From assembly GCF_020551945.1 (NCBI RefSeq), contig NZ_JAJBZH010000005.1:124001-188000 (forward strand): a stretch of 64,000 bases of DNA. The letters are read 5' to 3'. Origin of the DNA: Cellulosimicrobium marinum (lineage in GTDB: Bacteria; Actinomycetota; Actinomycetes; Actinomycetales; Cellulomonadaceae). This document shows positions 1,753 to 41,822 of the stretch, piece by piece. Numbering within the stretch: position 1 is the stretch's first letter; the number at the start of each line of letters is the position of its first letter. A model generated the notes under the pieces. The model made no database searches, was not told the origin of the DNA, and was given only the letters and a program-made list of their open reading frames with translations. A program made the translations under genes and the position numbers.

Positions 1753-1803
1753 CCCACGGGCGGGGCCGACCGGCCGCGCCGGACGGTGCGGCCGGTCGGC
1801 CCG

Positions 1804-1809
1804 TAGGAT
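1804..1809 (+). promoter_or_regulatory. -10 element TAGGAT ahead of trmI
   Basis: TAGGAT ends 8 nt before GTG 1818 with no ribosome binding site, consistent with a leaderless transcript that could serve the following arc gene as well. Confidence 0.5.
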
Positions 1810-1817
1810 GGTCGCCC

Positions 1818-2939
1818 GTGACCCACGAGCCGAGCGCCACGACCCCGCCCACCGCACCCGGCCCCGCACGTCCGGACGGCCCCGCCCGCACCGCGACCGG
1901 AGCCGACGAACGACGCGGCCCGCTCCGCGTGGGCGACAAGGTGCAGCTCACGGACCCGCGCGGGCGCCTGCACACCATCACCCTCGCCCCCGGCGCCACG
2001 TTCCACACGCACAAGGGCTACCTGCGTCACGACGACCTCATCGGGAGCCCCGAGGGCACGGTCGTGCGCAACACCGCCGAGATCGAGTACCTCGCGCTGC
2101 GGCCCCTGCTGTCCGACTACGTGCTGTCCATGCCGCGCGGCGCCGCTGTCGTCTACCCCAAGGACGCGGGCCAGATCGTCGCCATGGCGGACGTCTTCCC
2201 CGGCGCGCGGGTCGTCGAGGCCGGTGTCGGGTCGGGCGCGCTGACCATGTCGCTGCTGCGCGCCGTCGGCGACGCGGGCGAGCTGCACTCCATCGAGCGG
2301 CGCGAGGACTTCGCCGCCATCGCGCGCGGCAACGTCGAGACCTTCTTCGGCGGCGAGCACCCCGCCTGGACGCTCTCCGTGGGCGACCTCGCCGACGTCC
2401 TGCCCACGGTCGCCCCCGACGGGACCGTCGACCGGGTCGTGCTCGACATGCTCGCCCCCTGGGAGAACCTCGACGTCGTGGCCCGCGCGCTCGTCCCCGG
2501 CGGGGTGCTCGTCTGCTACGTCGCCACCACCACCCAGCTCTCGCGCCTCGCCGAGGACCTGCGCGCCGACGGCCGGTACGCCGAGCCCGTCGCGTGGGAG
2601 TCCATGGTCCGCGGCTGGCACCTCGAAGGCCTCGCCGTGCGCCCCCAGCACCGCATGATCGGCCACACCGGCTTCCTGATCACCGCGCGCCGGCTCGCCG
2701 ACGGCGTCGCGCCGCCCGAGCGCAAGCGTCGCCCCGCGAAGGGCGCCTACCCCACCGACGGCGAGCAGTGGTCGCCCGAGGAGCTGGGGGAGCGGCCCGT
2801 CTCCGAGAAGAAGATCCGCCGCGTGCGCCGCGACGTCGGCCAGGCGCCCGACACCGCACCCGACGGCCACACCGCGGACGACGGCGGCGGCAGCACCGCG
2901 CCCGCGGCCGACGCCGCACCGGACGAGTCGGGCGCGTGA
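1818..2939 (+). CDS. trmI: tRNA (adenine-58-N1)-methyltransferase TrmI
   Basis: SAM-dependent enzyme that makes m1A at position 58 in the T-loop of tRNA. 373 aa. The N-terminal barrel carries the family block HTHKGYLRHDDLIG. The SAM-binding motif I is VVEAGVGSGALT. The later motif VVLDMLAPWENL and the AVRPQHRMIGHTGFL block are also typical. The last 80 or so residues are charged and low in complexity and lie beyond the usual family end (about 280-300 aa). GTG 1818 was preferred because a -10 element lies 8 nt upstream. In many actinobacteria this gene directly precedes the proteasomal ATPase, as here (arc starts 104 bp downstream). Confidence 0.93.
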   Translation: MTHEPSATTPPTAPGPARPDGPARTATGADERRGPLRVGDKVQLTDPRGRLHTITLAPGATFHTHKGYLRHDDLIGSPEGTVVRNTAEIEYLALRPLLSDYVLSMPRGAAVVYPKDAGQIVAMADVFPGARVVEAGVGSGALTMSLLRAVGDAGELHSIERREDFAAIARGNVETFFGGEHPAWTLSVGDLADVLPTVAPDGTVDRVVLDMLAPWENLDVVARALVPGGVLVCYVATTTQLSRLAEDLRADGRYAEPVAWESMVRGWHLEGLAVRPQHRMIGHTGFLITARRLADGVAPPERKRRPAKGAYPTDGEQWSPEELGERPVSEKKIRRVRRDVGQAPDTAPDGHTADDGGGSTAPAADAAPDESGA

Positions 2940-3011
2940 CGGTCGCGTAACGATCCGTCGCACGTCGTCTCAGCCCGGGTGTCGTCCGTGTACGCGCGGA
3001 AGAATTGTGTC

Positions 3012-3017
3012 TATGGT
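3012..3017 (+). promoter_or_regulatory. Possible -10 element for arc
   Basis: TATGGT lies 26 nt before the arc start codon and a GAGAGGGG ribosome binding site lies in between. No convincing -35 is visible. Readthrough from trmI is equally possible. Confidence 0.3.
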
Positions 3018-3043
3018 CGACACCCGGCGAGAGGGGACACCCG

Positions 3044-4696
3044 ATGAGCGAGACATTCGGCCGCGGTGACGAGAGCACGACGAGCACGGCGCGCGAGCTC
3101 GCCCTGCTCTCCGCGAAGAACGAACGGCTCGCGGAGGCCCTGCGGGCCGCCCGCGACCAGATCCTCGACCTCAAGCGGCAGATCGACGAGCTCGCGAAGC
3201 CTCCGGGCACGTACGCCGTCTTCCTCGCCGCCCACCCCGACGGCTCCGTCGACGTCTCCGCCTCCGGGCGCAAAATGCACGTCGGCGCGAGCCCCAGCCT
3301 CGACGTCGAACGCCTGCGCCCCGGCCAGGAGGTCAAGCTCAACGAGGCCATGACCGTCGTCGCCGCGGGCGGGTACGAGCAGACCGGCGAGATCGTCACG
3401 ATCAAGGAGATCCTCGACGCCGAGCGCGTCCTCGTCGTCGGGCGCGCCGACGAGGAACGCGTCGTGCGGCTCGCCGGCTCCGTCGCCCACACCGCGCTGC
3501 GCGTCGGCGACTCCCTGACCATCGACACGCGCAGCGGGTTCGTCTTCGAGGTCATCCCGAAGTCCGAGGTCGAGGAGCTCGTCCTCGAAGAGGTCCCCGA
3601 CATCCGGTACGAGGACATCGGCGGGCTCGGCCCCCAGATCGAGCAGATCCGCGACGCCGTCGAGCTCCCCTTCACCCACCCCGACCTGTTCCGCGAGCAC
3701 GGCCTCCGCCCGCCCAAGGGCGTCCTGCTCTACGGTCCGCCCGGGTGCGGCAAGACCCTCATCGCCAAGGCCGTCGCCAACTCCCTCGCGCACACCGTCG
3801 CCCGCTCCCGCGGCGAGACCCTCGAGCCCGGCACCGCCAAGAGCTACTTCCTCAACGTCAAGGGCCCCGAGCTGCTCAACAAGTACGTCGGCGAGACCGA
3901 GCGGCACATCCGCCTCATCTTCGCCCGCGCCCGCGAGAAGGCCTCCCAGGGCACCCCCGTCGTCGTGTTCTTCGACGAGATGGAGTCCCTGTTCCGCACC
4001 CGCGGCACCGGCCTGTCCTCCGACGTCGAGACCACGATCGTGCCCCAGCTCCTCTCCGAGATCGACGGCGTCGAACGCCTCGACAACGTCATCGTCATCG
4101 GCGCGTCCAACCGCGAGGACATGATCGACCCCGCGATCCTGCGCCCCGGCCGCCTCGACGTGAAGATCAAGATCGAACGCCCCGACGCCGAGGGCGCCAA
4201 GGAGATCTTCGCGAAGTACCTCACCGACGACCTGCCCATCCACGCCGCCGACGTCGCCGAGCACGGCGGGGACCAGCGCGAGGCCCTCGACGCCATGATC
4301 CGGTCCGTCGTCGAGCGCATGTACTCCGAGGACGAGGAGAACCAGTTCCTCGAGGTCACCTACGCCTCCGGCGACAAGGAGATCCTCTACTTCAAGGACT
4401 TCAACTCCGGCGCGATGATCCAGAACGTCGTCGACCGGGCCAAGAAGTCCGCCATCAAGGACCTCCTCGCCACCGGCCAGCGCGGCATCCGCGTCGACCA
4501 CCTCCTCGCCGCCTGCGTCGACGAGTTCAAGGAGAACGAGGACCTGCCCAACACCACCAACCCCGACGACTGGGCGCGCATCAGCGGCAAGAAGGGCGAG
4601 CGCATCGTCTTCATCCGCACGATCGTCCAGAAGAAGGGCGAGGGCGGCTCCCCGCGCACCATCGACACCGTGACGAACACCGGCCAGTACCTGTAG
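3044..4696 (+). CDS. arc: Proteasome-associated AAA ATPase ARC/Mpa
   Basis: Hexameric unfoldase that recognises Pup on tagged proteins and feeds them into the 20S proteasome. 550 aa, full length. Residues 15-55 form the N-terminal coiled coil that binds Pup. Two OB-fold domains follow (about 56-180). The AAA domain has Walker A GPPGCGKT (231-238), Walker B VVVFFDE (D311, E312) and the arginine-finger region after ILRPGRLD. The C-terminus is GQYL, with the penultimate Tyr that opens the proteasome gate. ATG 3044 has the ribosome binding site GAGAGGGG. The gene lies between trmI and dop; the 655-bp gap to dop is unusually long for this locus. Confidence 0.97.
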
Positions 4697-4730
4697 CGCG
4701 ACGGTTCGCCGCGTCGGTCGTCGTGGTGGT

Positions 4731-4808
4731 CGCCGGGACGGGGTCGGCTGTCGGGTTCGTCGCCGGGACGGGGTCGGCTGTCGGGTTCGTCGCCGGGACG
4801 AGGTCGGA
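4731..4808 (+). repeat. 30-bp tandem repeat, about 2.6 copies
   Basis: Units at 4731-4760 and 4761-4790 are identical; a third, partial unit begins at 4791 and departs after 10 bases (GACGAGG instead of GACGGGG). Each unit begins CGCCGGGACG and ends TCGGGTTCGT. The period is a multiple of three, but no gene is evident. Confidence 0.95.
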
Positions 4809-4906
4809 GGGCGGCGGCCGTGCCGGGTCTACCATCCGCGCCGCTCGTTCCTCGCGTCGCTCCCGCCAGACCCACCACGACCCGGCACGGCCGCCGCCCT
4901 CCGACC
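4802..4906 (+). repeat. Perfect 28-bp inverted repeat with 49-bp loop
   Basis: Left arm 4802-4829 and right arm 4879-4906 are exact reverse complements (left arm begins GGTCGGAGGG and ends GCCGGGTC). The left arm overlaps the partial third copy of the tandem repeat. The arms would form a very stable hairpin in RNA from either strand. Confidence 0.95.
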
Positions 4907-5051
4907 CCCTCCCGGCTCGGCCGCGTCCGGGCCGTCACCTCGTGAGCACCGATCGGGGCCGACGGCGCCGGCTCGCCTCCCGCAGCCGACTCGCCCGGGC
5001 GACCCGCCGGACGAGGCCGGGGCACGACGTCGGACAGGGCGAGTCGTGAGA

Positions 5052-5146
5052 GATGGTGACGTGCCGGGCGAGCGGGCGGTGCGGCGTCGGCCCTGTCGGG
5101 CTGGGGCGATGGTGACGTGCCGGGCGAGCGGGCGGTGCGGCGTCGG
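5052..5146 (+). repeat. 39-bp direct repeat, two identical copies
   Basis: Copies at 5052-5090 and 5108-5146 are identical over 39 bases (starting GATGGTGACG and ending GCGGCGTCGG), with a 56-bp period. The 17-bp spacer contains GCCCTGTCGGG, which can pair imperfectly with CGGACAGGGC near 5030. The structure resembles a repetitive extragenic element. Confidence 0.95.
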
Positions 5147-10291: not shown

Positions 10292-11329
10292 GTGAGGACC
10301 GTGCCCGTCACGGCCGCCGGACCCCCCGTGGGGACCGCGCGGCCGCTCCCTCGTCGTGCACGGCTGCTGCGCGGTGTCGCGGCGCTCCTGTCCGTCGTGC
10401 TCGCGCTCGTGCTCGGTGCGTGCCGAGAGCCGGAGGACGTGCCCCCGACGCCGCTGAACACCGAGCTGGAGGTGACCGGGTCGGCGGGTGCGCCTCCCGC
10501 GCTCGTGTACGACGAGCCCCTCGACGTGCCAGAGACGCGTACCGAGGTCGTGTGGCCGGGCACGGGCCGCGTGCTGGAGGACGACGGCCCGCTCCTGCTC
10601 AACCTCTACGCGGAGGACGCCGCCGCCGGGACCGTGCTGCAGAACACGTACGCCGACGCCCCCCAGTGGCTCCGCCTCACGGACGAGTCCGTGGGGACGG
10701 AGCTCGCGGACCTCCTGCGGGGGCAGCGCGTGGGCGCGCGCCTCCTTCTCGTCGAGGAGGACGACGGCGTCCCGGTGGTCCTGGTCGCCGACGTCCTGCC
10801 GACGCGCGCGGACGGGGAGGTCGTCGCGCCGCCCGACGCGGACGGCGTCCCCACCGTCGAGCTCGCGGAGGACGGCGCCCCGACGATCACCGTCCCCGCC
10901 GACACGCCCCCGCCGACCGACCTCGGCGTCCGCACGCTGGTCCGAGGCTCCGGCGCCCAGGTGGAGGCCGGGCAGGTCGTCACCGTCCGGTACACGGGCG
11001 TGCGCTGGTCGGACGGGGCGGTGGTCGACTCCTCGTGGGCCGACGACGCCGCCCCGTCGTCGGTGATGATCGGGATCGGCGAGGTCGTCGAGGGCTGGGA
11101 GCAGGGCCTGCTCGAGCAGTCGGTGGGCAGCCAGGTGCTGCTCGTCGTCCCGCCCGAGCTGGGGTACGAGGGGACCGCGAACCCGCTCGCGGAGGAGACG
11201 CTCGTCTACGTCGTCGACGTCCTCGACGCGCACTTCCCCGTGTCCGCCGAGGAGGCGGCGGGGGGTGCCGACGACGCCGCACCGGACCAGACCGGCGACG
11301 CGCCGGCCGACGAAGGAGAGAACCCATGA
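10292..11329 (+). CDS. FKBP-type peptidyl-prolyl isomerase, predicted lipoprotein
   Basis: Secreted, lipid-anchored FKBP-type prolyl isomerase, 345 aa. An Arg-rich n-region and a hydrophobic helix end in the lipobox LGAC, with Cys44 as the lipidated residue. An N-terminal FKBP-like half (about 90-180) shows [13 protein letters not shown]. The C-terminal half is a clear FKBP domain: [20 protein letters not shown], then [18 protein letters not shown] and PPELGYEG. The last 35 residues are acidic and Ala-rich. GTG 10292 is used; GTG 10301 is an alternative. Its presence directly after pafA is common in actinobacteria. It overlaps hisF by ATGA. Confidence 0.88.
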
Positions 11330-30021: not shown

Positions 30022-30029
30022 CGTGCACC

Positions 30030-30055
30030 CCCGACGTCGGATGTCCGGCGTCGGG
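30030..30055 (+). terminator. Hairpin after gltD
   Basis: CCCGACG and CGTCGGG arms separated by 12 nt lie 8 bp after the gltD stop. No T-run follows. It plausibly separates gltBD from pyk. Confidence 0.4.
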
Positions 30056-30136
30056 ACGATGAGCGGGGCATCCTTGGGAGGGGCACCCCGCGACGATGAT
30101 CGGCCCCGGCCGGTCGGAGGACTAGAGGCTGGAGAT

Positions 30137-31567
30137 ATGCGCAGAGCAAAGATCGTCTGCACCATCGGACCCGCGACCGCGTCGAAGGAGCAGCTCCGTG
30201 CGCTCGTCGACGCCGGCATGGACGTCGCACGCATCAACCGGAGCCACGGCAGCGCCGAGGAGCACGAGGCCGTCTACCACGGCGTCCGCGAGGCGGCCGC
30301 GGCGTCGGGCCGCTCCGTCGCCGTGCTCGTCGACCTGCAGGGCCCGAAGATCCGCCTGGGCCGGTTCGGCGGCGACGAGAAGCACTGGCTGGACGTCGGC
30401 GACGAGTTCGTCATCACCACCGAGGACGTCGTCGGGACCAAGGAGCTCGTCTCCACGACGCACAAGGGCCTGCCGGGCGACGCCCGTGTCGGGGACCCGA
30501 TCCTCATCGACGACGGCAAGGTGCTCGTCCGCGTCACCGCGGTCGAGGGGCCGCGCGTCGTGACCCGTGTCGAGGTCGCGGGCCCCGTGTCCAACAACAA
30601 GGGCCTGAACCTCCCGGGCGTCGCGGTCTCCGTGCCTGCGCTGTCCGACAAGGACACCGAGGACCTGCGCTGGGCGCTGCGTCTCGGCACCGACTTCATC
30701 GCCCTGTCGTTCGTCCGGTCCGCGAAGGACTTCGACGACGTCAAGCGGATCATGGAGGAGGAGGGGCGCACCGTCCCCGTCGTCGCCAAGATCGAGAAGC
30801 CGCAGGCCGTCGACAACCTCGCCGAGATCGTCGACGCGTTCGACGGCGTCATGGTCGCCCGTGGCGACCTGGCGGTCGAGCTCCCGCTCGAGCAGGTCCC
30901 GCTCGTGCAGAAGCGCATCGTCGAGCTCGCGCGCCGCAACGCCAAGCCGGTCATCGTGGCGACGCAGGTCCTCGAGTCCATGACGACGAACCCGCGGCCG
31001 ACGCGCGCCGAGGCGTCCGACTGCGCCAACGCCGTGCTCGACGGCGCGGACGCGGTCATGCTCTCGGGCGAGACGAGCGTGGGCGACTACCCGATCGTCA
31101 CCGTCCAGACGATGGCGCGGATCATCGAGGCGACGGAGGAGGCGGGCCGCGAGCGCATCGCCCCCCTCGGCTCCACCCCGCACACGCGCGGTGGCGCGAT
31201 CACGCGGGCGGCGGCCGAGGTCGGCGAGATCCTCGGCGTGAAGTACCTCGTGACGTTCACGCAGTCGGGCGACTCGGCGCGCCGCATGTCGCGCCTGCGC
31301 TCGTCGATCCCGCTGCTGGCGTTCACGCCGCGCGAGCACGTGCGCAACGTCCTGTCGCTCACGTGGGGCACGCAGACGTACCAGGTGCCCGAGGTGGAGA
31401 ACACCGACGCGATGGTCGGTCAGGTCGACACGACGCTCCAGGCCAACGGTCTCGCCGAGGTGGGCGACCTCGTCGTCGTCGTGTCGGGCGCGCCCGTGGG
31501 CCAGCCCGGGACGACCAACTCGATCCTCGTGCACAAGATCGGTGACCACTCCGACACGCGCAAGTGA
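30137..31567 (+). CDS. pyk: Pyruvate kinase
   Basis: Final ATP-forming step of glycolysis, from phosphoenolpyruvate to pyruvate; cytosolic tetramer. 476 aa. Substrate and metal motifs: RRAKIVCTIGPAT, RINRSHGSAEEH (Arg/Asn/Ser of the active site), VAKIEKPQAVDNL (catalytic Lys), VMVARGDLAVELPLE and TRAEASDCANAVLDG. The C-terminal allosteric domain is present. ATG 30137 has GGAG 6 nt upstream, and a GAGGCT -10-like hexamer sits 6 nt before it, so a very short leader is possible. Strong hairpins follow the gene and separate it from the convergent glycosyltransferase. Confidence 0.97.
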   Translation: MRRAKIVCTIGPATASKEQLRALVDAGMDVARINRSHGSAEEHEAVYHGVREAAAASGRSVAVLVDLQGPKIRLGRFGGDEKHWLDVGDEFVITTEDVVGTKELVSTTHKGLPGDARVGDPILIDDGKVLVRVTAVEGPRVVTRVEVAGPVSNNKGLNLPGVAVSVPALSDKDTEDLRWALRLGTDFIALSFVRSAKDFDDVKRIMEEEGRTVPVVAKIEKPQAVDNLAEIVDAFDGVMVARGDLAVELPLEQVPLVQKRIVELARRNAKPVIVATQVLESMTTNPRPTRAEASDCANAVLDGADAVMLSGETSVGDYPIVTVQTMARIIEATEEAGRERIAPLGSTPHTRGGAITRAAAEVGEILGVKYLVTFTQSGDSARRMSRLRSSIPLLAFTPREHVRNVLSLTWGTQTYQVPEVENTDAMVGQVDTTLQANGLAEVGDLVVVVSGAPVGQPGTTNSILVHKIGDHSDTRK

Positions 31568-31743: not shown

Positions 31744-33069
31744 TCACACCGCGGCGGGCTCCCAGGGGGTGAGCCAGGCAGGGGCGTCGGGGGTGAGCGC
31801 GAGCGAGCGCAGCATGGCGTCGAGCACGGCGGCGCGGTCGAACTGCAGGGCGTGGGTGCGGGCGGCCTCGCGCGCCCGGGCGCGCTCGTCCGGGGTCGCG
31901 CCGAGCACGTCGTCGAGGGCGCGGGCGATCGCGTCGGGGTCGCCCACGGGCACGATGGTCGCGTGGTCGCCGACGGCCTCGCCGATGCCGCCGGTGTCCG
32001 TCGTGATGACGGGGCCCCCGCCGGCGAGCATGGACTCGACGAGCGCGATGCCGAACGTCTCGACGAACTCGGGGCGGGGCTTGCTCGGCAGGACGAACGC
32101 GGCGCTGGCGGCCATGAGGTGCGGCTTCTCGGCGTCGTCGACGTCGTCGAGGAAGACGACCCGTTCGGCGACGGCGCTCGCCGCGGCCTGGGCGCGCAGC
32201 TCCGCCTCCTGCGGGCCGCGGCCCGCGACGACGAGCCGGTGCGTCGTCGCGGCTCCGGAGCGGGCGAACCCGTCGAGGAGGTCGTCGACGCCCTTGGCGG
32301 CGGCGAGGCGGGACAGGTAGAGCACGTAGCCGTCGGCGTCGAGGCCGCGGCGCGCGAGGATGTCGGCGGTCCGGGTGGGGTCGAGCCCCGTGTAGGCGGC
32401 GGTGTCGATCGCCGGGTAGGACACGCGGACGCGCTCGCGGAGCTGGGCGGCGAAGAAGGTGCCGTGGCGCTCGTCGACCTGCTGCGCGCACTCGACCACG
32501 AGGTCGCGCGTGTAGCGCGAGACGGCGACGCACAGGTCGTTCGCGAGGTAGTCGGACAGGACGTGCGCCGCGGCGCCGAAGCGTCCGGCCTCCACGCACG
32601 ACCGGACGACGTTGGTCACGTCGGACCCGACGGCCTCCGCGACGGTGGCGACGTCGACGGGCAGCCCGGTGCTGCGCGCGACCCGCACGGCGTCGGTGAC
32701 CGCGGTGGTGTGGGGGCTGAGGTAGAGCGACAGGCAGACCGTGGGGACGCCGTCGGTGAACAGCTCGACGAGGCGGCCGGTGAGACCGGCGAGGTACCGC
32801 GCGTCGGGCACCTTGTAGTCGCCCACGGGCTCGGGCCGCTCCACGGTGATGCCGGGGCTGTAGGGCAGCACGGTGTCGAGCGGCTTGAGGGGGAGGCCGG
32901 CCTCGCGGAGCCGGTCGAGCGGCCACGTGACGATCCGCACGTCGGTGAACCCGCGGTCGAGCGCGGCCTCGGCGAGGTTGCGCGCCTCGCCGGAGTGGCC
33001 GCAGATCACGGGGTCGGCGCGGACGACGACGACGAGACGGCGGTCGCGGGGTGCGTCGGTGGGGTTCAT
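31744..33069 (-). CDS. GT4-type glycosyltransferase
   Basis: Predicted retaining GT-B glycosyltransferase, 441 aa. The N-terminal domain contains GHSGEARNLAEAA, the Gly-rich acceptor loop. The C-terminal GT4 domain has VLYLSRLAAAKGVDDLLDGF, LVVAGRGPQEAEL and EFVETFGIALVESMLAGGGPVI, the family E-x7-E motif, followed by TDTGGIGEAV. Donor and acceptor cannot be told. The ATG overlaps the stop of the upstream GH92 gene (ATGA), so the two are translated as a pair. That pairing suggests a role with a mannose-containing glycan, but this is inference only. Confidence 0.87.
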   Translation of the reverse strand: MNPTDAPRDRRLVVVVRADPVICGHSGEARNLAEAALDRGFTDVRIVTWPLDRLREAGLPLKPLDTVLPYSPGITVERPEPVGDYKVPDARYLAGLTGRLVELFTDGVPTVCLSLYLSPHTTAVTDAVRVARSTGLPVDVATVAEAVGSDVTNVVRSCVEAGRFGAAAHVLSDYLANDLCVAVSRYTRDLVVECAQQVDERHGTFFAAQLRERVRVSYPAIDTAAYTGLDPTRTADILARRGLDADGYVLYLSRLAAAKGVDDLLDGFARSGAATTHRLVVAGRGPQEAELRAQAAASAVAERVVFLDDVDDAEKPHLMAASAAFVLPSKPRPEFVETFGIALVESMLAGGGPVITTDTGGIGEAVGDHATIVPVGDPDAIARALDDVLGATPDERARAREAARTHALQFDRAAVLDAMLRSLALTPDAPAWLTPWEPAAV

Positions 33070-35312
33070 GGCGTCTCCCGGGGTGCGGTGGTGGGTGGTG
33101 CGGGGGGCGGGGTCGACGGTGGCCGGTCGGCCGGGTCGGTGCCCCACGCGGAGGGTTCCGGGCCGAGCTCGAGCAGCAGGCGTCCGCCGCGGCGGACGGT
33201 GCTCGCGGGGAGCCAGGTCCGGGTGAGGGGGCGGCCGTCGAGCCAGGCCGCCCGGACGTACTGCGGCGGGGTGTCGGGCCCCGGTGGTGCGAACCCGGTC
33301 GTCTCGACGGTCAGGACGCCGCCCGGCAGGTGCAGCCGGGACTCGCAGAACGCCGGGGCGTTGACGAGGAAGAGGGCCTGCCCGGCGACGGGGAAGAGCC
33401 CGAGCGACGCCCAGACGTACCAGGAGCTCAGCGCGCCGGAGTCGTCGTTGCCGGGCAGGCCGCCCGGACCGGTGCCGAACCGCTGGTGCACGGCGGCGTG
33501 CACGACCTCCGCTGTGCGGTCGGGACGGCCCGCGTAGTGGTAGGCCCAGGGGGCTTCCATGTCGGGCTCGTTGTTGAGCCCTTCGAACCGGTCGAGGGCG
33601 TACCCGGCGGCCATCTCGGCGGGGCCGGGCCGTTCCCCGGGCTGGACGACGGGCTCGGCGCCGTAGCCGAAGAAGCGGTCGAGGAGCGCGACGAACGCGT
33701 CGTCGCCGCCGGCGAGGGCGATCCGTCCGGCCATGTCGTGCAGCAGGCGGAACGAGTAGTTCCAGCGTCCGCCCTCGTAGTACGTCGAGTCGCGCAGGAG
33801 ACCGGTACCGGGGTCGAAGGCGTTGACCCAGCCGGCGGCGAGCCGGGCGAGCTCGTCGGCGAGCGCGGCGTCGCCCACGCGACGCGCGACGCGCTCGGTG
33901 CACCAGTAGCCGAACGCGAGGTCGAGCGTGTGGCTGATCGGGTGCGCGACGCCCTGCAGGAGGTAGTCCTCGCCGTAGGTGCGGCGCAGGTCGTTGTGCA
34001 TGTGCACGAGCGCCCAGTCCCAGTCGAGGCCGGGCAGGTCGAGCGCGCACAGGTCGGCGAGGAACGTCTGGGCGAGGGCGCTCGCCTGGCGGGAGAAGCG
34101 GTCCGCGCCGCGGGCCATGCGGTATCCGACGGGGAAGTTGCCCTCCTCCTCGCAGATGTGCAGCAGGGCGGTCGCGAGCTCGACGGCCCGCTCGGGCCAG
34201 AACGTGGTGAGCAGGGGGAGCTGGGTGCGGTAGATGTCCCACATCGTCGACAGGTCGTAGGCGAACGGTCCGTCGGTCGGCCAGAAGGGGCTCTCGTCGG
34301 GGGCGAGGCAGGGCTTGACGAGCGAGTGGTAGAGGGCGGTGGCGAACACCGAGCGGCGGTCGTCGTCGACGCCGTCGACCTCGACGAGCTCGAGGTGGTC
34401 GTCCCACGTCGTCGACGTCGTCGCGCGGCGCACCGTGAACGACTCCGGGCCGGGTCCGCAGTCGGCGACGAGGTTGTCGTGCGCCTGGTCGGTGCCGCGC
34501 AGGGAGAACCCGATCCGCAGCTCGACGACCTGCCCGGCGCGGGTCGGTCCGGCCCAGACGAGGCCGAAGGGCCGCAGCGTCGTGGGCCGGATGTCGCCGA
34601 ACTCGAGCCGGGTGCTGCCCGGCATGAGGCGCCGGTCGTACCAGAGCATCTGCCGCCAGCGCGGGGCGTCGCACTCGAGGTGCGCGGCGAGCGGGGCACC
34701 CTCGACGACGATCTCGCCCGCCGCGGCACCGGGGCCGAGGGTCGCCAGGTGGGCGCGCAGCGGGACGGTCGCGCCGTAGGGGATGGCGAGGCCGCCGAGC
34801 GAGAGGTCGACGACGACGCGCGCGTCACGGTGCTCGGGGAAGGTGAAGCGGTGGACCGCGCTCTTGGGCCCGACGGTCACCTCGCAGCGCACGCCGCTGC
34901 CGAGCGTCGCCGCGTAGTACCCGGGGACGGCCACCTCGTCGTGCAGGGCCCAGGTGCGACCGAGGGCGTCGAGCGGCTCGAGCATCGGGGTGACGCGCAG
35001 GTAGTTGTAGTACTTGCGGATCGCGCCGGTGCCCGACTGCTGGAAGTGGGTGACGCCGGACGCGACGTGCTCGTCGACGAGCGCCGTCGGCAGGCCCTCG
35101 GTGCTGATGTCGTAGCGCCCGTACCCGGTGGGGTAGGCGCCGGAGTAGGCGCACGCGGACACCATGCCGAGGGGGTGGCACGCGCCGGGGTGGGTGTTGC
35201 CGACCTGCGGCTTGGGCGCCCACCACGTGGCGGCGATCCCCGTGGCGGGGGGCAGCGCCGTCGCCTCCGTCCCGACGAACGGGTCGACGTGGTCGAGCAT
35301 CCTCCCGCTCAT
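33066..35312 (-). CDS. GH92-family alpha-mannosidase
   Basis: Predicted Ca-dependent inverting exo-alpha-mannosidase of family GH92, 748 aa. N-terminal VDPFVGTEATAL and HPLGMVSACAYSGAYPTGYG match the family beta-domain. The catalytic domain has FWPTDGPFAYDLSTMWDIYR, GLNNEPDMEAPWAYHY and GNDDSGALSSWYVWASLGLF. No signal peptide or membrane anchor is visible at the N-terminus (MSGRMLDHVDPF), so a cytosolic location is likely, whereas many GH92 enzymes are secreted. ATG 35312 has GGGAGAGGGGG 7 nt upstream. It diverges from the NRPS gene across 180 bp and is coupled to the downstream glycosyltransferase. Confidence 0.9.
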   Translation of the reverse strand: MSGRMLDHVDPFVGTEATALPPATGIAATWWAPKPQVGNTHPGACHPLGMVSACAYSGAYPTGYGRYDISTEGLPTALVDEHVASGVTHFQQSGTGAIRKYYNYLRVTPMLEPLDALGRTWALHDEVAVPGYYAATLGSGVRCEVTVGPKSAVHRFTFPEHRDARVVVDLSLGGLAIPYGATVPLRAHLATLGPGAAAGEIVVEGAPLAAHLECDAPRWRQMLWYDRRLMPGSTRLEFGDIRPTTLRPFGLVWAGPTRAGQVVELRIGFSLRGTDQAHDNLVADCGPGPESFTVRRATTSTTWDDHLELVEVDGVDDDRRSVFATALYHSLVKPCLAPDESPFWPTDGPFAYDLSTMWDIYRTQLPLLTTFWPERAVELATALLHICEEEGNFPVGYRMARGADRFSRQASALAQTFLADLCALDLPGLDWDWALVHMHNDLRRTYGEDYLLQGVAHPISHTLDLAFGYWCTERVARRVGDAALADELARLAAGWVNAFDPGTGLLRDSTYYEGGRWNYSFRLLHDMAGRIALAGGDDAFVALLDRFFGYGAEPVVQPGERPGPAEMAAGYALDRFEGLNNEPDMEAPWAYHYAGRPDRTAEVVHAAVHQRFGTGPGGLPGNDDSGALSSWYVWASLGLFPVAGQALFLVNAPAFCESRLHLPGGVLTVETTGFAPPGPDTPPQYVRAAWLDGRPLTRTWLPASTVRRGGRLLLELGPEPSAWGTDPADRPPSTPPPAPPTTAPRETP

Positions 35313-35417
35313 GGTCGTCCCCCTCTCCCGTGGGCCGCGGCGGCGCGTCGTGCTGCGACGGTACGGCCGCGGTGTGTCGGGGGCGTTTCCGCGAGGTGTC
35401 GCCGGGGTCGGGTGCCG

Positions 35418-35427
35418 GACACGTGTC
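35418..35427. promoter_or_regulatory. Palindrome GACACGTGTC, possible operator
   Basis: A perfect 10-bp palindrome sits in the divergent GH92-NRPS gap, just upstream of where the -35 of the NRPS promoter would be. It may bind a regulator, but short palindromes are frequent in GC-rich DNA. Confidence 0.25.
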
Positions 35428-35454
35428 GTCCACCCGCCGTGCACCGACCCGGAC

Positions 35455-35460
35455 TACCCT
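35455..35460 (+). promoter_or_regulatory. -10 element TACCCT for the Pls-like NRPS gene
   Basis: TACCCT lies 32 nt before GTG 35493; the start of transcription would be near 35467, leaving a short leader with a GGAG site. Confidence 0.4.
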
Positions 35461-35492
35461 TCGCCCAGAAGCGTCCCCGGCCCTGGAGCAGC

Positions 35493-38400
35493 GTGCAGCC
35501 CACCTCGACCTCGCCCGACCCCCTCCTCGCGGGGTACCGGGCCCCGGCGCCACGGACGCTGCTCGACGTCCTCGCGGCCACCGCGCAGGCCTACCCGGAC
35601 GCCCCCGCGATCGACGACGGCACGGTGCTCACGTACCGCCAGCTGGAAGCGGAGGTGGGGCGCCGGGCGGCCCGTCTGGTCGACCAGGGGGTCGGGCCGG
35701 GCGAGCGGGTGGGGGTGCGTGCGACGTCGGGCCGGGCGGACCTGTACCTGTCGGTGCTCGCGGTGCTCGCGGCGGGCGGCGCCTACGTCCCCGTCGACAA
35801 GGACGACCCGCCGGAGCGTGCGGAGCTCGTCTTCACCGAGGCAGGGGTGCGCGCCGTCGTGGGCGACGACGGGAGCCTCGCGGTGCTGCCCGACACCGAC
35901 GCGGGCCCGCGGGCGGGTGAGCGCCCCGGACCCGGGGACGACGCGTGGGTGATCTTCACGTCCGGGTCGACGGGCACGCCCAAGGGCGTCGCCGTGACGC
36001 ACCGCAGCGCGGCGGCGTTCGTCGACGCCGAGGCGAGCCTCTTCCTGCGCGACGCGCCCCTGGGCCCGGGGGACCGGGTCCTCGCGGGGCTGTCGGTCGC
36101 GTTCGACGCCTCGTGCGAAGAGATGTGGCTGGCGTGGCGCCACGGCGCGTGCCTCGTTCCCGCGCCGCGCGCCCTGGTGCGCACCGGCGCGGACCTGGGC
36201 CCGTGGGTCGCGGAGCGGGGGATCACCGTCGTCTCGACCGTGCCGACCCTGGCGGGGCTCCTCCCGCCGGAGTCGTTGCGGTCGGTGCGGCTGCTCATCT
36301 TCGGCGGGGAGGCCTGCCCGCCGGAGCTCGCCGACCGTCTCGCCGTCCCGGGCCGCGAGGTGTGGAACACCTACGGGCCCACGGAGGCCACGGTCGTCGC
36401 GTGCGCGGCGCCGCTCGGCGGCCCCGGCCCCGTGCGGATCGGGCTCCCCCTGGACGGGTGGGACCTCGCGGTCGTCGGGCCCGACGGCGCGCCGGTCGCC
36501 CCGGGCGCCACGGGCGAGCTGGTGATCGGCGGCGTCGGGCTCGCCCGGTACCTGGACCCCGCGAAGGACGCCGAGAAGTACGCCCCGCACCCCGGCCTGG
36601 GCTGGGAACGCGCCTACCGGTCGGGCGACCTCGTCGTGCGCGACGACGCGGGCCTGCTCTTCGTCGGCCGCGCCGACGACCAGGTGAAGGTCGGCGGGCG
36701 GCGCATCGAGCTCGGGGAGATCGACGCGGCCCTGCTCGCCCTCGACGGGGTCGGCGCGGCCGCGAGCGCGGTGCGCCGCTCCGACGCGGGGACCTCGGTC
36801 CTCGTGGGCTACCTCGTCCCCGAGGCCGCCCGGTCGGACGCGCTCGACGCCCGGGCGTGCGTCGACGCCCTGCGCCACGTCCTGCCCGCCGCGCTCGTGC
36901 CGCTCCTCGCGGTCGTCGACGAGATCCCGACCCGGACGTCCGGCAAGGTCGACCGCGACGCGCTCCCGTGGCCGCTGCCGGAGGGTGCACGGCTCGCGGC
37001 GCAGACGACGGCCACCGACGACGCACCGCACCTCACGGGGACCGAGGAGTGGGTCGCGGGCATCTGGCAGCGCGTGCTCGGGGCCGAGCCGCGCGTCGCC
37101 GACGACGACTTCTTCGAGCTCGGCGGCGGGAGCCTCACCGCTGCCCAGGTCGTCTCGGCGCTGCGCGAACGGCTACCGAGCGTCACCGTCGCCGACCTGT
37201 ACGACAACCCGTCGGTGGGGGAGCTCGCCGCGCTCGTCGACGACGGGTCCGCGGGGACGCCGGCGAGCGGGCCGGTCCACGAGGGGGCGTCGCCGGGGTC
37301 GCGTGGCGCACCGGCCTTGCCCGTGCCGCGGCGCACGCAGGCCGTGCAGCTGCTCGTGCTGCTCGCCCTGCGCACCGTCGCCGGGCTGCGCTGGCTGGTC
37401 TGGGTCGCGGCGCTGGGTAACGTCCTCGCCGCCACGACAGCGCTGCCCTTCGTGCGCCCGGTGTCCTGGTGGTGGGTCGTCGCGGGCTGGCTCCTGCTCG
37501 TCAGCCCGCCGGGCCGGATGCTCGTGTCCGCCGTCGGTGCCCGCCTCCTCCTGCGGGGCCTGCGACCGGGGCGCTACCCGCGCGGCGGTTCCGTCCACCT
37601 GCGGCTGTGGGCGGCGGAGGGCCTGGTCGGCGCGAGCGGCGGCGTGACGGTCGCGGGCGCCCCGCTCGTCGGGCTCTACGCCCGCCTCCTCGGCGCGACC
37701 GTGGGCCGCGACGTCGAGCTGCACGCCCTGCCCCCGGTCACGGGGATGCTCACCCTCGGGGCCGGGAGCGCGGTGGAGCCCGAGGTCGACCTGTCGGGCC
37801 ACTGGCTCGACGGGGACACGCTCCACGTCGGGCGCGTCCGCGTGGGCGCCGGCGCGACCGTCGGGGCACGGTCCACCCTGCTGCCGGGCGCGCGCGTCGG
37901 CAAGGGCGCCGACGTCGCCGCCGGGTCCTGCGTCGCCGGCCGCGTCGGCGCCCGCGAGTACTGGGCGGGCTCGCCCGCCGTGCGCGTGCGGAGCGAGGTC
38001 AGGCACCCCTGGCCCGACGAGCGGCCGCCGCGCCGACGACGCTGGGCGCTCGCCTACGGGCTGAGCGGGCTCGGGCTGAGCCTGCTCCCGGTCGTCGCGG
38101 TCGGCGTCGGGCTCGTCGTGCTGCTCGCGGGCGTGCCCCTCACGGTCGGATCGCCCGGGCTGGGCGAGCTCGTGGGCCCCCTCGCGGCGTGGGTCCCGGC
38201 CGCGGCGCTCGCGGCCGCCGCGACCTACGCGGCGCTCGTCCTCGGCTGCGTGCGGCTCCTCGCGGTCGGCCTGCACGAGGGGTACCACCCCGCGCACAGC
38301 CGGCAGGGCTGGCAGGCGTGGGTGACGCAGCGGCTCATGGACGCGGCGCGCACCTCCCTGTTCCCGCTCTACTCGAGCGTCTTCACCCCGGGGTGGCTGC

Positions 38401-39458
38401 GGCTCCTCGGTGCGCGCGTGGGGCGCGACGTCGAGGCGTCGACCGTCGTCGGCCTGCCGTCGATGATGGAGGTCGCGCGCGGGGCCTTCCTCGCCGACGA
38501 CACGATGGTGGCGCCCTACGAGCTCGGCGGCGGGTGGGTGCGCGTGGCCCGCGCGCGCGTCGGCAAGCGCGCGTTCCTCGGCAACTCCGGGATCACCGCA
38601 CCGGGACGGTCGGTGCCCAAGAACGGGCTCGTCGCGGTGCTGTCCGCCGCCCCGCCCAAGGCCAAGGCGGGCTCGTCGTGGCTCGGCAGCCCGCCCACGC
38701 GGCTGCGGCGCGTCGCGCAGGGCGACGCGGACGAGTCCCGCACCTTCGCGCCGCCGCCCCGCCTGCTCGCCGCGCGCGGTGCGTTCGAGGTGCTCCGCTG
38801 GGCCGCCGCGGTGTGCTCGGCGTACCTCGCGGTGGCCGTGGTCGCCGCCCTCCTGCACCTCGCGGACACGTGGGGGCCCGGGTGGGCGGCCGCGTCGTCC
38901 GGCGCCGTCCTCCTCGCCGCCGGCGGGGTGGCCGCGCTGCTCACCACGGCCGTGAAGGGGCTGCTCGTCGGCCGGTTCCGGACGGGCGACCACCCGCTGT
39001 GGAGCTCGTTCGTGTGGCGCAACGAGCTCCAGGACACGTTCGTCGAGGTCGTCGCCGCGCCCTGGTTCGCCGAGCACGCCTACGGCACGCCCCTGCTCAC
39101 CGGGTGGCTGCGCACCCTCGGTGCGCGGGTCGGCCGAGGCGTGTGGTGCGAGACGTACTGGCTCCCGGAGGCGGACCTCGTCCACCTCGCCGACGGCGCG
39201 ACCGTGGGACGCGGCTGCGTCCTGCAGACGCACCTCTTCCACGACCGCGTGATGAGCCTCGACACGGTCGAGGTGGGCCCGGGCGCGTCGGTCGGGCCGC
39301 ACAGCGTCGTCCTGCCCGCCGCCGTCGTCGCCGACGGCGCGCGCGTCGGCCCGGCGTCCCTCGTGATGCGGGGCGAGGTCGTGCCGACCGGCTCGGCCTG
39401 GCACGGGAACCCGATCGTGCCGTGGGACACCGACCCGGCCGTCGCCGGGCAGCGGTGA
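35493..39458 (+). CDS. Pls/PosA-family membrane NRPS (epsilon-poly-lysine synthetase-like)
   Basis: 1321-aa single-module NRPS with an unusual membrane C-terminus. Residues 1-500 are the adenylation domain (A3 FTSGSTGTPKG, A5 VWNTYGPTEA, A10 Lys in TRTSGKVDRDALP). The carrier domain follows, with Ser547 in FFELGGGSLTAAQ for the phosphopantetheine arm. The rest has six hydrophobic helices in three pairs alternating with three hexapeptide-repeat/acyltransferase-like domains (each begins LLGATVGRDVE, LLGARVGRDVE or TLGARVGRGVW). This A-T-TM architecture is that of Streptomyces Pls, which makes epsilon-poly-L-lysine without condensation or thioesterase domains. Aligning to GrsA by eye gives a specificity code of D-A-E-S-I-G-T-V-V-K, close to lysine-type codes as I remember them. 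GTG 35493 has GGAG 6 nt upstream. Confidence 0.88.
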   Translation: MQPTSTSPDPLLAGYRAPAPRTLLDVLAATAQAYPDAPAIDDGTVLTYRQLEAEVGRRAARLVDQGVGPGERVGVRATSGRADLYLSVLAVLAAGGAYVPVDKDDPPERAELVFTEAGVRAVVGDDGSLAVLPDTDAGPRAGERPGPGDDAWVIFTSGSTGTPKGVAVTHRSAAAFVDAEASLFLRDAPLGPGDRVLAGLSVAFDASCEEMWLAWRHGACLVPAPRALVRTGADLGPWVAERGITVVSTVPTLAGLLPPESLRSVRLLIFGGEACPPELADRLAVPGREVWNTYGPTEATVVACAAPLGGPGPVRIGLPLDGWDLAVVGPDGAPVAPGATGELVIGGVGLARYLDPAKDAEKYAPHPGLGWERAYRSGDLVVRDDAGLLFVGRADDQVKVGGRRIELGEIDAALLALDGVGAAASAVRRSDAGTSVLVGYLVPEAARSDALDARACVDALRHVLPAALVPLLAVVDEIPTRTSGKVDRDALPWPLPEGARLAAQTTATDDAPHLTGTEEWVAGIWQRVLGAEPRVADDDFFELGGGSLTAAQVVSALRERLPSVTVADLYDNPSVGELAALVDDGSAGTPASGPVHEGASPGSRGAPALPVPRRTQAVQLLVLLALRTVAGLRWLVWVAALGNVLAATTALPFVRPVSWWWVVAGWLLLVSPPGRMLVSAVGARLLLRGLRPGRYPRGGSVHLRLWAAEGLVGASGGVTVAGAPLVGLYARLLGATVGRDVELHALPPVTGMLTLGAGSAVEPEVDLSGHWLDGDTLHVGRVRVGAGATVGARSTLLPGARVGKGADVAAGSCVAGRVGAREYWAGSPAVRVRSEVRHPWPDERPPRRRRWALAYGLSGLGLSLLPVVAVGVGLVVLLAGVPLTVGSPGLGELVGPLAAWVPAAALAAAATYAALVLGCVRLLAVGLHEGYHPAHSRQGWQAWVTQRLMDAARTSLFPLYSSVFTPGWLRLLGARVGRDVEASTVVGLPSMMEVARGAFLADDTMVAPYELGGGWVRVARARVGKRAFLGNSGITAPGRSVPKNGLVAVLSAAPPKAKAGSSWLGSPPTRLRRVAQGDADESRTFAPPPRLLAARGAFEVLRWAAAVCSAYLAVAVVAALLHLADTWGPGWAAASSGAVLLAAGGVAALLTTAVKGLLVGRFRTGDHPLWSSFVWRNELQDTFVEVVAAPWFAEHAYGTPLLTGWLRTLGARVGRGVWCETYWLPEADLVHLADGATVGRGCVLQTHLFHDRVMSLDTVEVGPGASVGPHSVVLPAAVVADGARVGPASLVMRGEVVPTGSAWHGNPIVPWDTDPAVAGQR

Positions 39459-39475
39459 GCGGCGCCGTCGTCGCG

Positions 39476-39481
39476 TACGAT
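39476..39481 (+). promoter_or_regulatory. -10 element TACGAT ahead of the M1 peptidase
   Basis: TACGAT lies 17 bp after the NRPS stop and 32 nt before GTG 39514, giving a short leader that holds AGGAGGA. The peptidase may therefore have its own promoter as well as readthrough. Confidence 0.4.
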
Positions 39482-39513
39482 GCGGCGCACCCGACCCAGG
39501 AGGACGCCGGACC

Positions 39514-40875
39514 GTGGCCCACCGCCGACCGATGAACGGCCCCGACCCGTACGCCCCGCACCGCGGGACGACCGACCACCACGTGGACCGCTACCGGCTC
39601 GACCTGACGTACCGCGTGCGGCCCAACCGCCTCGACGGCGTGGCGACGCTCGACGTCGTGCTCGACGCGGACGTCGACGTCGTCGAGCTCGACCTCGTCC
39701 ACCTCAAGGCCGGTCGGGTGCGGGTCGACGGCGCGACGGCACGCTTCGCGCACGCGGGGGGCAGGCTCCGGGTCCGGCTCGGCCGGACCGTCGCGGCGGG
39801 CACCGCGCTGCAGGTGGAGGTCGAGTACGGGGGGCGCCCGCGGCCCTGGATCGGCCCGTGGGGCGACGTCGGGTGGGAGGAGCTCACGGAGGGCTCGCTC
39901 GTCGCCGGCCAGCCCGACGGCGCCCCGACCTGGTTCCCGTGCAACGACACCCCGGCGCACAAGGCCGTGTTCGAGATCACCGTGACGACGGACGCCGGGT
40001 ACACCGTGGTGGCGAACGGCCCTCTCCTCGACGTCTCGCGCCGCGCCTCGACCCGGACCTGGCGCCACGGCCCCACCGCGCCGATGTGCACGTACCTCGC
40101 GACGGTCGTCGTCGGGCGGTTCGACGAGCTGGACGTCGCACGGCGTCCCGGTCCCGCGGGGCTGGTCGACGCGCTGCGGCGCACGGTCCACCAGACGGCG
40201 CTCGCTCACGCCGGGCAGCGCGACGCCGTGCGTCGCGACCTCGCCCGGCACGGCGAGACGATGGCGGCGTTCGAGTCGATGTTCGGCCCGTACCCGTTCG
40301 CGGAGGGGTACCGGGTCGTCGTCACCGAGGACGAGCTCGAGATCCCGCTGGAGGCGCAGGGTCTGTCCATCTTCGGCGCGAACCACCTCGACGGCGCCGG
40401 GACGTGGGACCGCCTCGTGGCCCACGAGCTGGCCCACCAGTGGTTCGGCAACAGCGTCTCCGTGGCGCGGTGGCAGGACATCTGGCTCAACGAGGGGTTC
40501 GCCTGCTACGCCGAGTGGCTGTGGTCCGAGGCCGCGGGCCGCGAGACCGCCGACGCGCACGCCCGGGCCGCCCACGACCGGCTCGCCGGGCTGTCCCAGG
40601 ACCTCGTGATCGCCGACCCCGGCCCCGCGTCGATGTTCGACGACCGGCTGTACAAGCGCGGCGCGCTCACGCTGCACGCGCTGCGGCTCACGCTCGGAGA
40701 CCCGGCGTTCTTCGACGTGCTGCGCGGGTGGACCGCGACGCACCGGCACGGGTCGGTGACCACGGGGGACCTGCGGGCGGCGCTGCGGTCCGCGGGGGCC
40801 GACGTCGACGGTCTCCTCGACACGTGGCTCCTCGACGCACGGCTGCCCGCGCTGCCGCCCGCGCCGGACGCCTGA
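39514..40875 (+). CDS. M1-family zinc aminopeptidase, short form
   Basis: Predicted gluzincin aminopeptidase, 453 aa. The zinc site is H304-E305-L-A-H308 with E327 in WLNEGFACYAEW (HEXXH-x18-E). The substrate N-terminus would be held by the Glu of IPLEAQGLSIFG, the position of the GAMEN motif. The catalytic Tyr region is LYKRGALTLHALR. It has the N-terminal beta domain and catalytic domain but lacks the long C-terminal helical domain of PepN (about 850 aa). No signal peptide is seen. GTG 39514 follows AGGAGGA by 9 nt. M1-type enzymes are reported to degrade epsilon-poly-lysine in producers, so its position after the Pls-like gene is suggestive. Confidence 0.9.
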   Translation: MAHRRPMNGPDPYAPHRGTTDHHVDRYRLDLTYRVRPNRLDGVATLDVVLDADVDVVELDLVHLKAGRVRVDGATARFAHAGGRLRVRLGRTVAAGTALQVEVEYGGRPRPWIGPWGDVGWEELTEGSLVAGQPDGAPTWFPCNDTPAHKAVFEITVTTDAGYTVVANGPLLDVSRRASTRTWRHGPTAPMCTYLATVVVGRFDELDVARRPGPAGLVDALRRTVHQTALAHAGQRDAVRRDLARHGETMAAFESMFGPYPFAEGYRVVVTEDELEIPLEAQGLSIFGANHLDGAGTWDRLVAHELAHQWFGNSVSVARWQDIWLNEGFACYAEWLWSEAAGRETADAHARAAHDRLAGLSQDLVIADPGPASMFDDRLYKRGALTLHALRLTLGDPAFFDVLRGWTATHRHGSVTTGDLRAALRSAGADVDGLLDTWLLDARLPALPPAPDA

Positions 40876-40939
40876 GTCGCACGGCCCGACGTCGGCGGGA
40901 GAGGGACGCTCGTGGGTGGAGCGTCGACGAGCGAGAGGG

Positions 40940-41013
40940 TGCCCCGGGTGGGATTCGAACCCACACTGGATCGGGTTTGAGCCGAACGCCTCTGCCGGTT
41001 GGGCTACCGGGGC
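40940..41013 (-). tRNA. tRNA with anticodon CAA (Leu) and short variable region
   Basis: 74-nt gene on the minus strand. The acceptor stem GCCCCGG/CCGGGGC is perfect, the discriminator is A, and no CCA is encoded. The T-arm is GTGGG-TTCGAAT-CCCAC. The D-arm is a 3-bp GCC/GGC stem with a large loop. The anticodon loop is CTCAAAC with anticodon CAA at 40977-40979. The anticodon stem contains a U-U mismatch one pair from its outer end. The variable region is only 5 nt (CCAGT), whereas bacterial tRNA-Leu normally has a long variable arm. It may be an atypical leucine isoacceptor or may be charged with something else. It converges on the M1 peptidase gene. Confidence 0.85.
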
Positions 41014-41131
41014 TTGCGCGGGCGTGCCGCGCGGGCTCCATCGAACCACACGCGAGGGCGCGGCACGGACACCGACCGGGATCACAGTCCGCGCCGGGCG
41101 AAACCCGGGGGCGGCAGGGGGTGGTGCGCAC

Positions 41132-41137
41132 TACGAT
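41132..41137 (+). promoter_or_regulatory. -10 element TACGAT, leaderless pdtaR promoter
   Basis: TACGAT ends 7 nt before GTG 41145 with no Shine-Dalgarno sequence. Confidence 0.55.
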
Positions 41138-41144
41138 GTTCAGC

Positions 41145-41822
41145 GTGAGTGACGAGACAGCGCAGCCCGAGGACAAGAAGCCGCTCGACCTGCCCCCGAT
41201 GATCGAGCCCCAGCCCGCCGAGACGCCGCAGCCGTCGACGGGTCGTCCCGCGCGTCGCGCGGTCGTCGCCGAGGACGAGGCGCTCATCCGCCTCGACGTC
41301 GTCGAGACGCTGCGCGAGGCCGGGTTCGACGTGGTCGGCGAGGCCGGCGACGGCGCGACGGCGGTCAAGCTGGCGCTGGAGCTCAAGCCGGACGTCGTGG
41401 TCATGGACGTGAAGATGCCCGAGCTCGACGGCATCTCCGCGGCCGAGCAGATCGGCAAGGCGCACGCCGCGCCGGTCGTCCTGCTCACCGCGTTCTCCCA
41501 GGCCGAGCTCGTCGAGCGCGCGCGGGACGCCGGCGCCATGGCGTACGTGGTCAAGCCCTTCACCCCGGCCGACCTGCTCCCCGCGGTCGAGATCGCGATC
41601 TCGCGCTACTCGCAGATCTCGGCGCTCGAGTCCGAGGTCGCCGACCTCGCGGAGCGGTTCGAGACGCGCAAGCGCGTGGACCGTGCCAAGGGCCTGCTCA
41701 TGACGAAGATGGGCCTGTCGGAGCCGGAGTCGTTCCGCTGGATCCAGAAGACGTCGATGGACCGTCGCCTCACGATGCGCGAGGTCGCGGACGCCGTCAT
41801 CGAGCAGGTCGGCGGGGCCTGA
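41145..41822 (+). CDS. pdtaR: ANTAR-domain response regulator (PdtaR-like antiterminator)
   Basis: 225 aa. An N-terminal Pro/Glu-rich extension of about 35 residues precedes a receiver domain (RRAVVAEDEALIRLD, with the phospho-acceptor Asp in DVVVMDVKMPELDG, Thr in LLTAFSQ and Lys in YVVKPF). A coiled linker leads to a C-terminal ANTAR domain (RKRVDRAKGLLMTKMGLSE, then SFRWIQKTSMDRRLTMREVA), which binds RNA and prevents termination when activated. In M. tuberculosis the orthologue PdtaR (Rv1626) pairs with the kinase PdtaS and lies upstream of polA, as here. No kinase gene is in this window. GTG 41145 is set by the -10. Confidence 0.93.
   Translation: MSDETAQPEDKKPLDLPPMIEPQPAETPQPSTGRPARRAVVAEDEALIRLDVVETLREAGFDVVGEAGDGATAVKLALELKPDVVVMDVKMPELDGISAAEQIGKAHAAPVVLLTAFSQAELVERARDAGAMAYVVKPFTPADLLPAVEIAISRYSQISALESEVADLAERFETRKRVDRAKGLLMTKMGLSEPESFRWIQKTSMDRRLTMREVADAVIEQVGGA

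Follow-up and report, generated by a model that had tools for sequence, protein, structure and literature searches.

Within the window, by which we mean the whole analysed stretch of 64,000 nucleotides from Cellulosimicrobium marinum, two adjoining genes on the plus strand probably constitute a unit for the synthesis and turnover of epsilon-poly-L-lysine, in which the peptidase partner most likely resides in the cytosol. The first gene (35,493–39,458) encodes a Pls-type non-ribosomal peptide synthetase (NRPS) of 1321 amino acids, a candidate epsilon-poly-L-lysine synthetase, and the second (39,514–40,875) encodes a two-domain M1 zinc peptidase of 453 amino acids, which is of the PldII type and lacks a signal peptide as judged by hydropathy. 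Epsilon-poly-lysine is a natural antimicrobial lysine chain that serves as an industrial food preservative. The pls-pldII operon of Streptomyces albulus is already known, so the pairing itself is not of a new kind; what the analysis adds are the pairing figures across genomes, a presence/absence site in the genus, a residue match between PldII and this M1, and a split among these peptidases in their signal peptides. For its genus, the locus adds a lysine-type synthetase together with a likely depolymerase, and the comparison ties PldII to the M1 family.

An earlier, model-made reading of this DNA (the original prediction) described an adenylation-thiolation (A-T) module fused to six helices and three hexapeptide-repeat domains, followed 55 bp later by a zinc aminopeptidase gene. 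This layout is borne out by Pfam, TIGR02353, AlphaFold2 and Foldseek, with exact gene coordinates and with the helices arranged as three pairs. The synthetase frame opens with a GTG codon preceded by GGAG, and its Pfam matches are confined to AMP-binding (residues 28–352), PP-binding (residues 519–582) and Hexapep, with no condensation or thioesterase domain found by Pfam. The adenylation domain lies at 35,574–36,962 and the thiolation domain at 37,047–37,238, the latter carrying the carrier serine Ser547 (codon 37,131–37,133). The membrane region, which the original prediction assigned to the Pls family, matches TIGR02353 over residues 618–1308 with 703.7 bits against a cut-off of 423.1. Pfam alone passes a single hexapeptide stretch (residues 782–816); the other two hexapeptide-type domains emerge from structure prediction. 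For residues 601–1321, an AlphaFold2 model built from an alignment of 36 sequences (the window's and 35 relatives chosen among the 69 M1-bearing named loci described below) reaches a mean predicted local distance difference test score (pLDDT) of 87.3 and a predicted template modelling score (pTM) of 0.88. It consists of three repeats of a helix pair, a short helix and a left-handed beta-helix: helix pair 1 (model residues 13–86; 37,329–37,550) with beta-helix domain 1 (37,695–38,000), helix pair 2 (38,037–38,264) with domain 2 (38,409–38,702), and helix pair 3 (38,799–38,969) with domain 3 (39,123–39,401). In Foldseek the beta-helices match serine and maltose acetyltransferases (best E 6.3e-5), and the motif QTHLFHDR in domain 3 is unchanged across all 36 aligned sequences. 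The three-repeat fold agrees with the published model of PosA from Acinetobacter baumannii (PMC10522769). PosA shares the A-T module and the six-helix, triple beta-helix domain, but makes poly-ornithine and has the pocket DMEHNGTVSK.

The closest solved structure to the synthetase is 7WEW, the A domain of the S. albulus epsilon-poly-L-lysine synthetase (657 bits). At the ten specificity positions, which we take to follow GrsA numbering, the window enzyme has the pocket DAESIGTVVK (D205, A206, E209, S248, I269, G271, T293, V301, V302 and K485), equal to 7WEW at 10 of 10 positions as read off the alignment. Over 1275 aligned residues it is 59% identical to the Pls of a relative, L136, whose A domain is in turn 92% identical to 7WEW. 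The original prediction had proposed a homopoly-amino acid system in general terms; pocket identity, together with the PldII kinship described below, points specifically to epsilon-poly-lysine.

The peptidase gene follows after a gap of 55 bp (39,459–39,513) that holds its own ribosome-binding site, AGGAGG (39,498–39,503), and there is no further in-frame ATG, GTG or TTG upstream of its start. Pfam recognises Peptidase_M1_N and Peptidase_M1. The zinc motif HExxH-18-E (H304-E305-x-x-H308 and E327; 40,423–40,494) is complete, as in every linked M1 from the genome samples (70 of 70), and the amine-binding glutamate E280 is kept. The predicted structure has a pLDDT of 92.2 and matches that of the two-domain M1 from Deinococcus radiodurans (6a8z, 6ifg), with template modelling scores (TM-scores) of 0.85–0.86 at 29–30% identity. 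This enzyme is likewise short and without a C-terminal lid; it differs in that no Pls link appears in the literature seen, and its structures, by their titles, hold ordinary amino acids and a tripeptide. An identity as four-domain aminopeptidase N (PepN) was rejected, the TIGR02412 score being 103.7 bits versus 591.2 and the protein only 453 amino acids long.

Kinship with PldII is judged through L136. For S. albulus, pldII is described as translationally coupled to pls, and the residues D44, T45, D173, K174, T194 and E281 are named (PMC9223678). Read from the GTG at 10418, which overlaps the pls stop by four bases, the L136 M1 has 467 amino acids and carries all six of these residues at the same numbers; it is 44% identical to the window M1 and falls with it on one side of a branch against 20 unlinked M1s. 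These six residues indicate that S. albulus PldII belongs to the window's M1 family, and E281 of PldII would then correspond to the window's E280, the glutamate that binds the amine in M1 enzymes. The zinc ligands D44, T45, D173 and K174 given for PldII (PMC9223678) do not fit an M1 fold and were rejected in favour of the counterparts of H304, H308 and E327. More broadly, a branch with local support 99 separates the linked M1s from the 20 unlinked short M1s, which were hand-picked from the order and phylum searches, mostly best-scoring, at 34–42% identity. Residues near the active site separate the two sets: among the 138 linked M1s other than the window's, P278 occurs in 138 (0% of the unlinked), D376 in 99% (30%), D377 in 93% (5%) and R378 in 96% (0%). 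D376, D377 and R378 stand near the active site directly ahead of Tyr380, which we take to be the catalytic tyrosine, and the acidic residues there would suit a lysine polymer.

The M1 gene is conserved beside pls in relatives, as the original prediction required, and the pair recurs far beyond chance in the genome samples. In the genus, the synthetase and an adjoining M1 occur together in 5 of 17 genomes, and the other 12 contain neither. In the order sample, TIGR02353 occurs in 59 of 198 genomes, as 63 stretches once three split hits are joined. A same-strand M1 lies downstream at 55 of these 63, within 186 bp in 54 cases and 3.5 kb off in one (distances measured hit to hit). Conversely, every M1 match above 350 bits (54/54) is downstream of pls on its strand, 53 within 186 bp and one at 3.5 kb; the 55th paired M1 (G144) is a single open frame whose insert made it score lower and in pieces. 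In the phylum sample (tables read by eye), 15 of 296 genomes have TIGR02353 in 19 stretches, an M1 accompanies 14 of the 19, and all 14 M1 matches above 400 bits are paired with pls within 389 bp. The two samples overlap, G000, G021 and G050 being among the positives of both. Because scoring in these searches was limited to a few top first-look candidates from each genome (5, 8, 3 and 5), further copies of pls or the M1 gene may exist.

Pocket and pairing go together. In a set of 81 loci (the window and L056–L135), an M1 is present in 70 and absent from 11, and an A domain could be read in 78, namely all 70 with an M1 and 8 without (L098, L114 and L131 gave none). The pocket is DAESIGTVVK in 70 of 70 paired synthetases and in 0 of 8 unpaired ones, whose pockets are DIWQSTADDK (4), DFEYNGTVTK (2), DFEALSVVTK (1) and DAESIGTIIK (1). 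Among the best 80 named loci, which were found with the S. albulus sequence and are biased to lysine enzymes, an M1 lies beside the synthetase in 69. In four of the remainder (L138, L178, L182 and L184), a contig edge cuts the flank off immediately or after no more than about 620 bp. Six others (L142, L145, L146, L153, L165 and L200) have the exact DAESIGTVVK pocket and more than 2 kb of downstream flank without an adjoining M1. L179 (DAESIGTVIK), with sufficient flank, also lacks the M1. The M1 is therefore a strong but not obligatory neighbour of lysine-pocket Pls, and the six loci indicate that Pls does not need the M1 in cis. At the seven M1-less loci, Pfam searches of 20 hand-picked downstream open reading frames (ORFs) revealed no shared replacement peptidase, only single matches to DUF6882, a phosphatidylethanolamine-binding protein, a major facilitator superfamily (MFS) transporter and, on the opposite strand, an M20 peptidase. 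Nor did a 12-locus ORF panel compared with the 80 named loci yield a third gene of the unit; the best neighbour recurs in 15 of 79 other loci, which probably reflects one lineage's shared gene order.

Where the M1 acts was approached through its N-terminus. We scanned the mean hydropathy of 16-residue stretches, from the first in-frame start codon (reading from a point 70 bases ahead of the pls stop) to about 25 residues into the domain, in 139 linked M1s (two rows identical), with a dividing value of 1.2 set after the values had been seen. Seven Streptomyces M1s start with a twin-arginine motif and a hydrophobic stretch, for example SRRALLRGAALLPLAA, as expected of a twin-arginine translocation (Tat)-like signal. 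An eighth, L156, has a similar but weaker N-terminus with a mean hydropathy of 1.23, and the eight form one clade (FastTree local support 99). In the other 131 of 139, the window's included, no 16-residue stretch exceeds 1.07. By hydropathy, then, the window M1 has no N-terminal hydrophobic segment whereas the S. albulus-type clade has a Tat-like one; the 131 look cytosolic, and the exported S. albulus PldII looks like a derived form. A limited literature search found no mention of such a split among PldII-type M1s.

We propose that Pls would adenylate L-lysine with ATP and load it onto Ser547, and that the membrane-seated triple beta-helix domain would join its carboxyl group to a side-chain amine, either on a free lysine or on the chain being built. 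The M1, as a PldII-type zinc depolymerase, would cut the isopeptide bonds of the polymer. In epsilon-poly-lysine the alpha-amine of every residue stays free next to the scissile carbonyl, and for this reason an aminopeptidase site could act at internal bonds along the whole chain, with Glu280 holding the alpha-amine, zinc on H304, H308 and E327, and Tyr380 taking part; the absent C-terminal lid would leave room for the chain. Cutting at internal bonds would account for the endo-type activity that has been reported for PldII (PMC9205021). Because the window M1 has no signal peptide it is most likely cytosolic, where it would most likely clear or recycle polymer that remains inside the cell.

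Other readings of the locus fare less well against these data. That the synthetase makes a different cationic homopolymer, of ornithine, diaminobutyrate, diaminopropionate or beta-lysine, is conceivable in that all of these polymers come from the Pls family with one layout (PMC10522769, PMC8117764). Their published pockets differ at position 2, however, where lysine enzymes have Ala, ornithine enzymes Met, diaminopropionate and diaminobutyrate enzymes Phe, and beta-lysine enzymes Gly (PMC10522769); Ala206 of the window enzyme fails both the PosA-type Met and the poly-diaminopropionate- or poly-diaminobutyrate-type Phe test, and with all ten positions as in 7WEW we regard another product as very improbable. 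An equally slim chance attaches to the M1 being an ordinary housekeeping aminopeptidase that adjoins pls by accident or through shared regulation. M1 enzymes are common, and the 20 unlinked short ones were drawn from the same genome samples, yet the linked M1s branch apart from them, carry active-site residues of their own (Pro278, Asp376, Asp377 and Arg378) and, above 350 bits in the order sample, are not found without pls. Slimmer still is the prospect that this strain carries the locus intact but silent or without function. For the pls of Corynebacterium variabile, neither polymer nor Pls protein was detected in its own host (PMC8117764), and a scan of 35,200–41,200 found no sigma-70-type promoter or terminator, such a scan being uninformative at this GC content. 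Against silence, both frames are open with their catalytic residues in place, and identity to four relatives from the genus is 76–88% over both proteins. The alternative with the most in its favour, though still unlikely, retains the same pair but lets the M1 leave the cell by a signal-less route and shield its producer externally, in line with the published account of S. albulus PldII. Published work places PldII, of which the window M1 is a relative, on the outer side of the membrane (PMC9223678, PMC9205021). A Tat-like signal explains export in the S. albulus-type clade, however, and 131 of 139 linked M1s, the window's among them, have none.

Several points nevertheless weigh against a lysine synthesis-and-turnover unit with a cytosolic M1. 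S. albulus PldII, the one member whose location has been published, lies outside the membrane (PMC9223678, PMC9205021), and the no-signal call rests on hydropathy with a post hoc cut-off rather than a trained predictor. The six lysine-pocket loci with ample flank and no adjoining M1, as well as copies possibly missed in the genome searches, loosen the pairing. For chain length, Trp646 and L883 are the published residues of S. albulus Pls (PMC8506220); L136 has W646 and L883 at these places when translated from one of its possible starts, and the window enzyme has F653 and L897, so that the tryptophan is replaced by phenylalanine. Inactivation of Pld and PldII left yield and chain length unchanged according to a review (PMC8506220), with which a CRISPR interference study reporting longer chains disagrees (PMC9223678). 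Finally, no polymer was detected from the C. variabile pls, whether in its native host or in C. glutamicum (PMC8117764), and the window locus may therefore be silent.

Two published systems are closest to the pair. The S. albulus pls-pldII operon shares the synthetase layout, the ten-residue pocket and a PldII-type M1 directly downstream on the same strand. It differs from the window, which has the 55-bp gap and separate ribosome-binding site (the overlapping GTGA is seen in L136), an M1 without the Tat-like signal, and Phe653 for Trp646. A pls-peptidase operon is described in Streptomyces and C. variabile, and Pls in several coryneform genera (PMC8117764); the original prediction was right to connect Pls with zinc aminopeptidases, but drew the connection only loosely and without this operon. 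The C. variabile case, likened here by published description only, is likewise a coryneform-type actinobacterial Pls in a peptidase operon, though of another genus, and its Pls makes epsilon-poly-lysine when placed in S. coelicolor (PMC8117764).

A wider and more tentative idea, which we hold possible but would not bet on, is that turnover of epsilon-poly-lysine is mainly intracellular. Outside one Streptomyces clade the peptidase partner of Pls would be cytosolic and would control an internal polycation pool in most pair-bearing actinobacteria. External self-protection by PldII would be derived and the secreted antimicrobial the exception, and the aminopeptidase fold would have been recruited because each polymer residue resembles an N-terminus. 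Such a pool, if it exists, might be a lysine or nitrogen store or a counter-ion, or its control might protect the cell from unexported polymer. Should the partner M1 prove cytosolic in most lineages, the self-protection now accepted as the role of PldII would have to be reconsidered.

Within the genus, pls and the M1 gene are a two-gene unit that comes and goes. The pyruvate kinase gene (30,023–31,567, plus strand in the window), a conserved anchor on the left of the variable site, lies upstream of pls in 5 of 5 pls-bearing members. On the right, the site is bordered in the window by tRNA-Leu(CAA) (40,938–41,013, minus strand, 3' end toward the M1 gene), which also follows the M1 gene in G015 and G016; G003 stops at a contig edge, and G001 has no tRNA in the stretch examined. 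The site could be read in 8 of the 12 pls-less members (G005–G009 and G011–G013), and there pls and the M1 gene are absent from an order of pyruvate kinase, glycoside hydrolase family 92 (GH92; three cases), tRNA-Leu, GNAT and thioesterase genes; in G009 and G011 some 2.4–2.8 kb of other sequence separates pyruvate kinase from the tRNA. The GH92 gene (33,066–35,444, minus strand), the window's left neighbour outside the pair, likewise occurs at this tRNA-Leu site in some genus members and is missing from others, and the site therefore varies for more than one gene. No repeat of the tRNA-Leu 3' end of at least 12 bases was found elsewhere in the window, and therefore no attachment site is claimed. 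In five genomes from four other genera of the family, the pair was found with none of the neighbour genes that it has in the window.

Some loci of the survey stand apart. Four of the M1-less loci with a lysine pocket (L145, L146, L153 and L165) are from Kitasatospora, and L145 and L165 belong to one genome, K. aureofaciens CPD02, which has two M1-less lysine-pocket synthetase genes. L179 and L111 have lysine-like pockets altered at position 8 or 9 (DAESIGTVIK and DAESIGTIIK), both without an M1, and the gene for an MFS transporter lies downstream in L179. In L086 (positions 1793–5084; genome G049), two tandem ORFs of 567 amino acids lie between pls and the M1 gene in the same direction; one weakly matches dynamin (28.1 bits, cut-off 27) and is a possible membrane-stress partner. 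In L110 (657–3597; genome G083), genes for a membrane acyltransferase (HGSNAT/Acyl_transf_3) and a phosphopantetheinyl transferase come after that of a DFEYNGTVTK relative of Pls, with no M1. Lastly, L122 and L127 (genus g74, probably Streptomyces, given that L119 of genome G370 and the named locus L171 seem to be a single record) and L102 and L113 (family f6) are split relatives, in which a TIGR02353 protein of about 830–1060 amino acids (open frame) stands beside a separate A-domain protein whose pocket, DIWQSTADDK, is of a non-cationic type; a carrier domain is present in L122 and L127, and a TauD oxygenase lies beside the split pair in L127.

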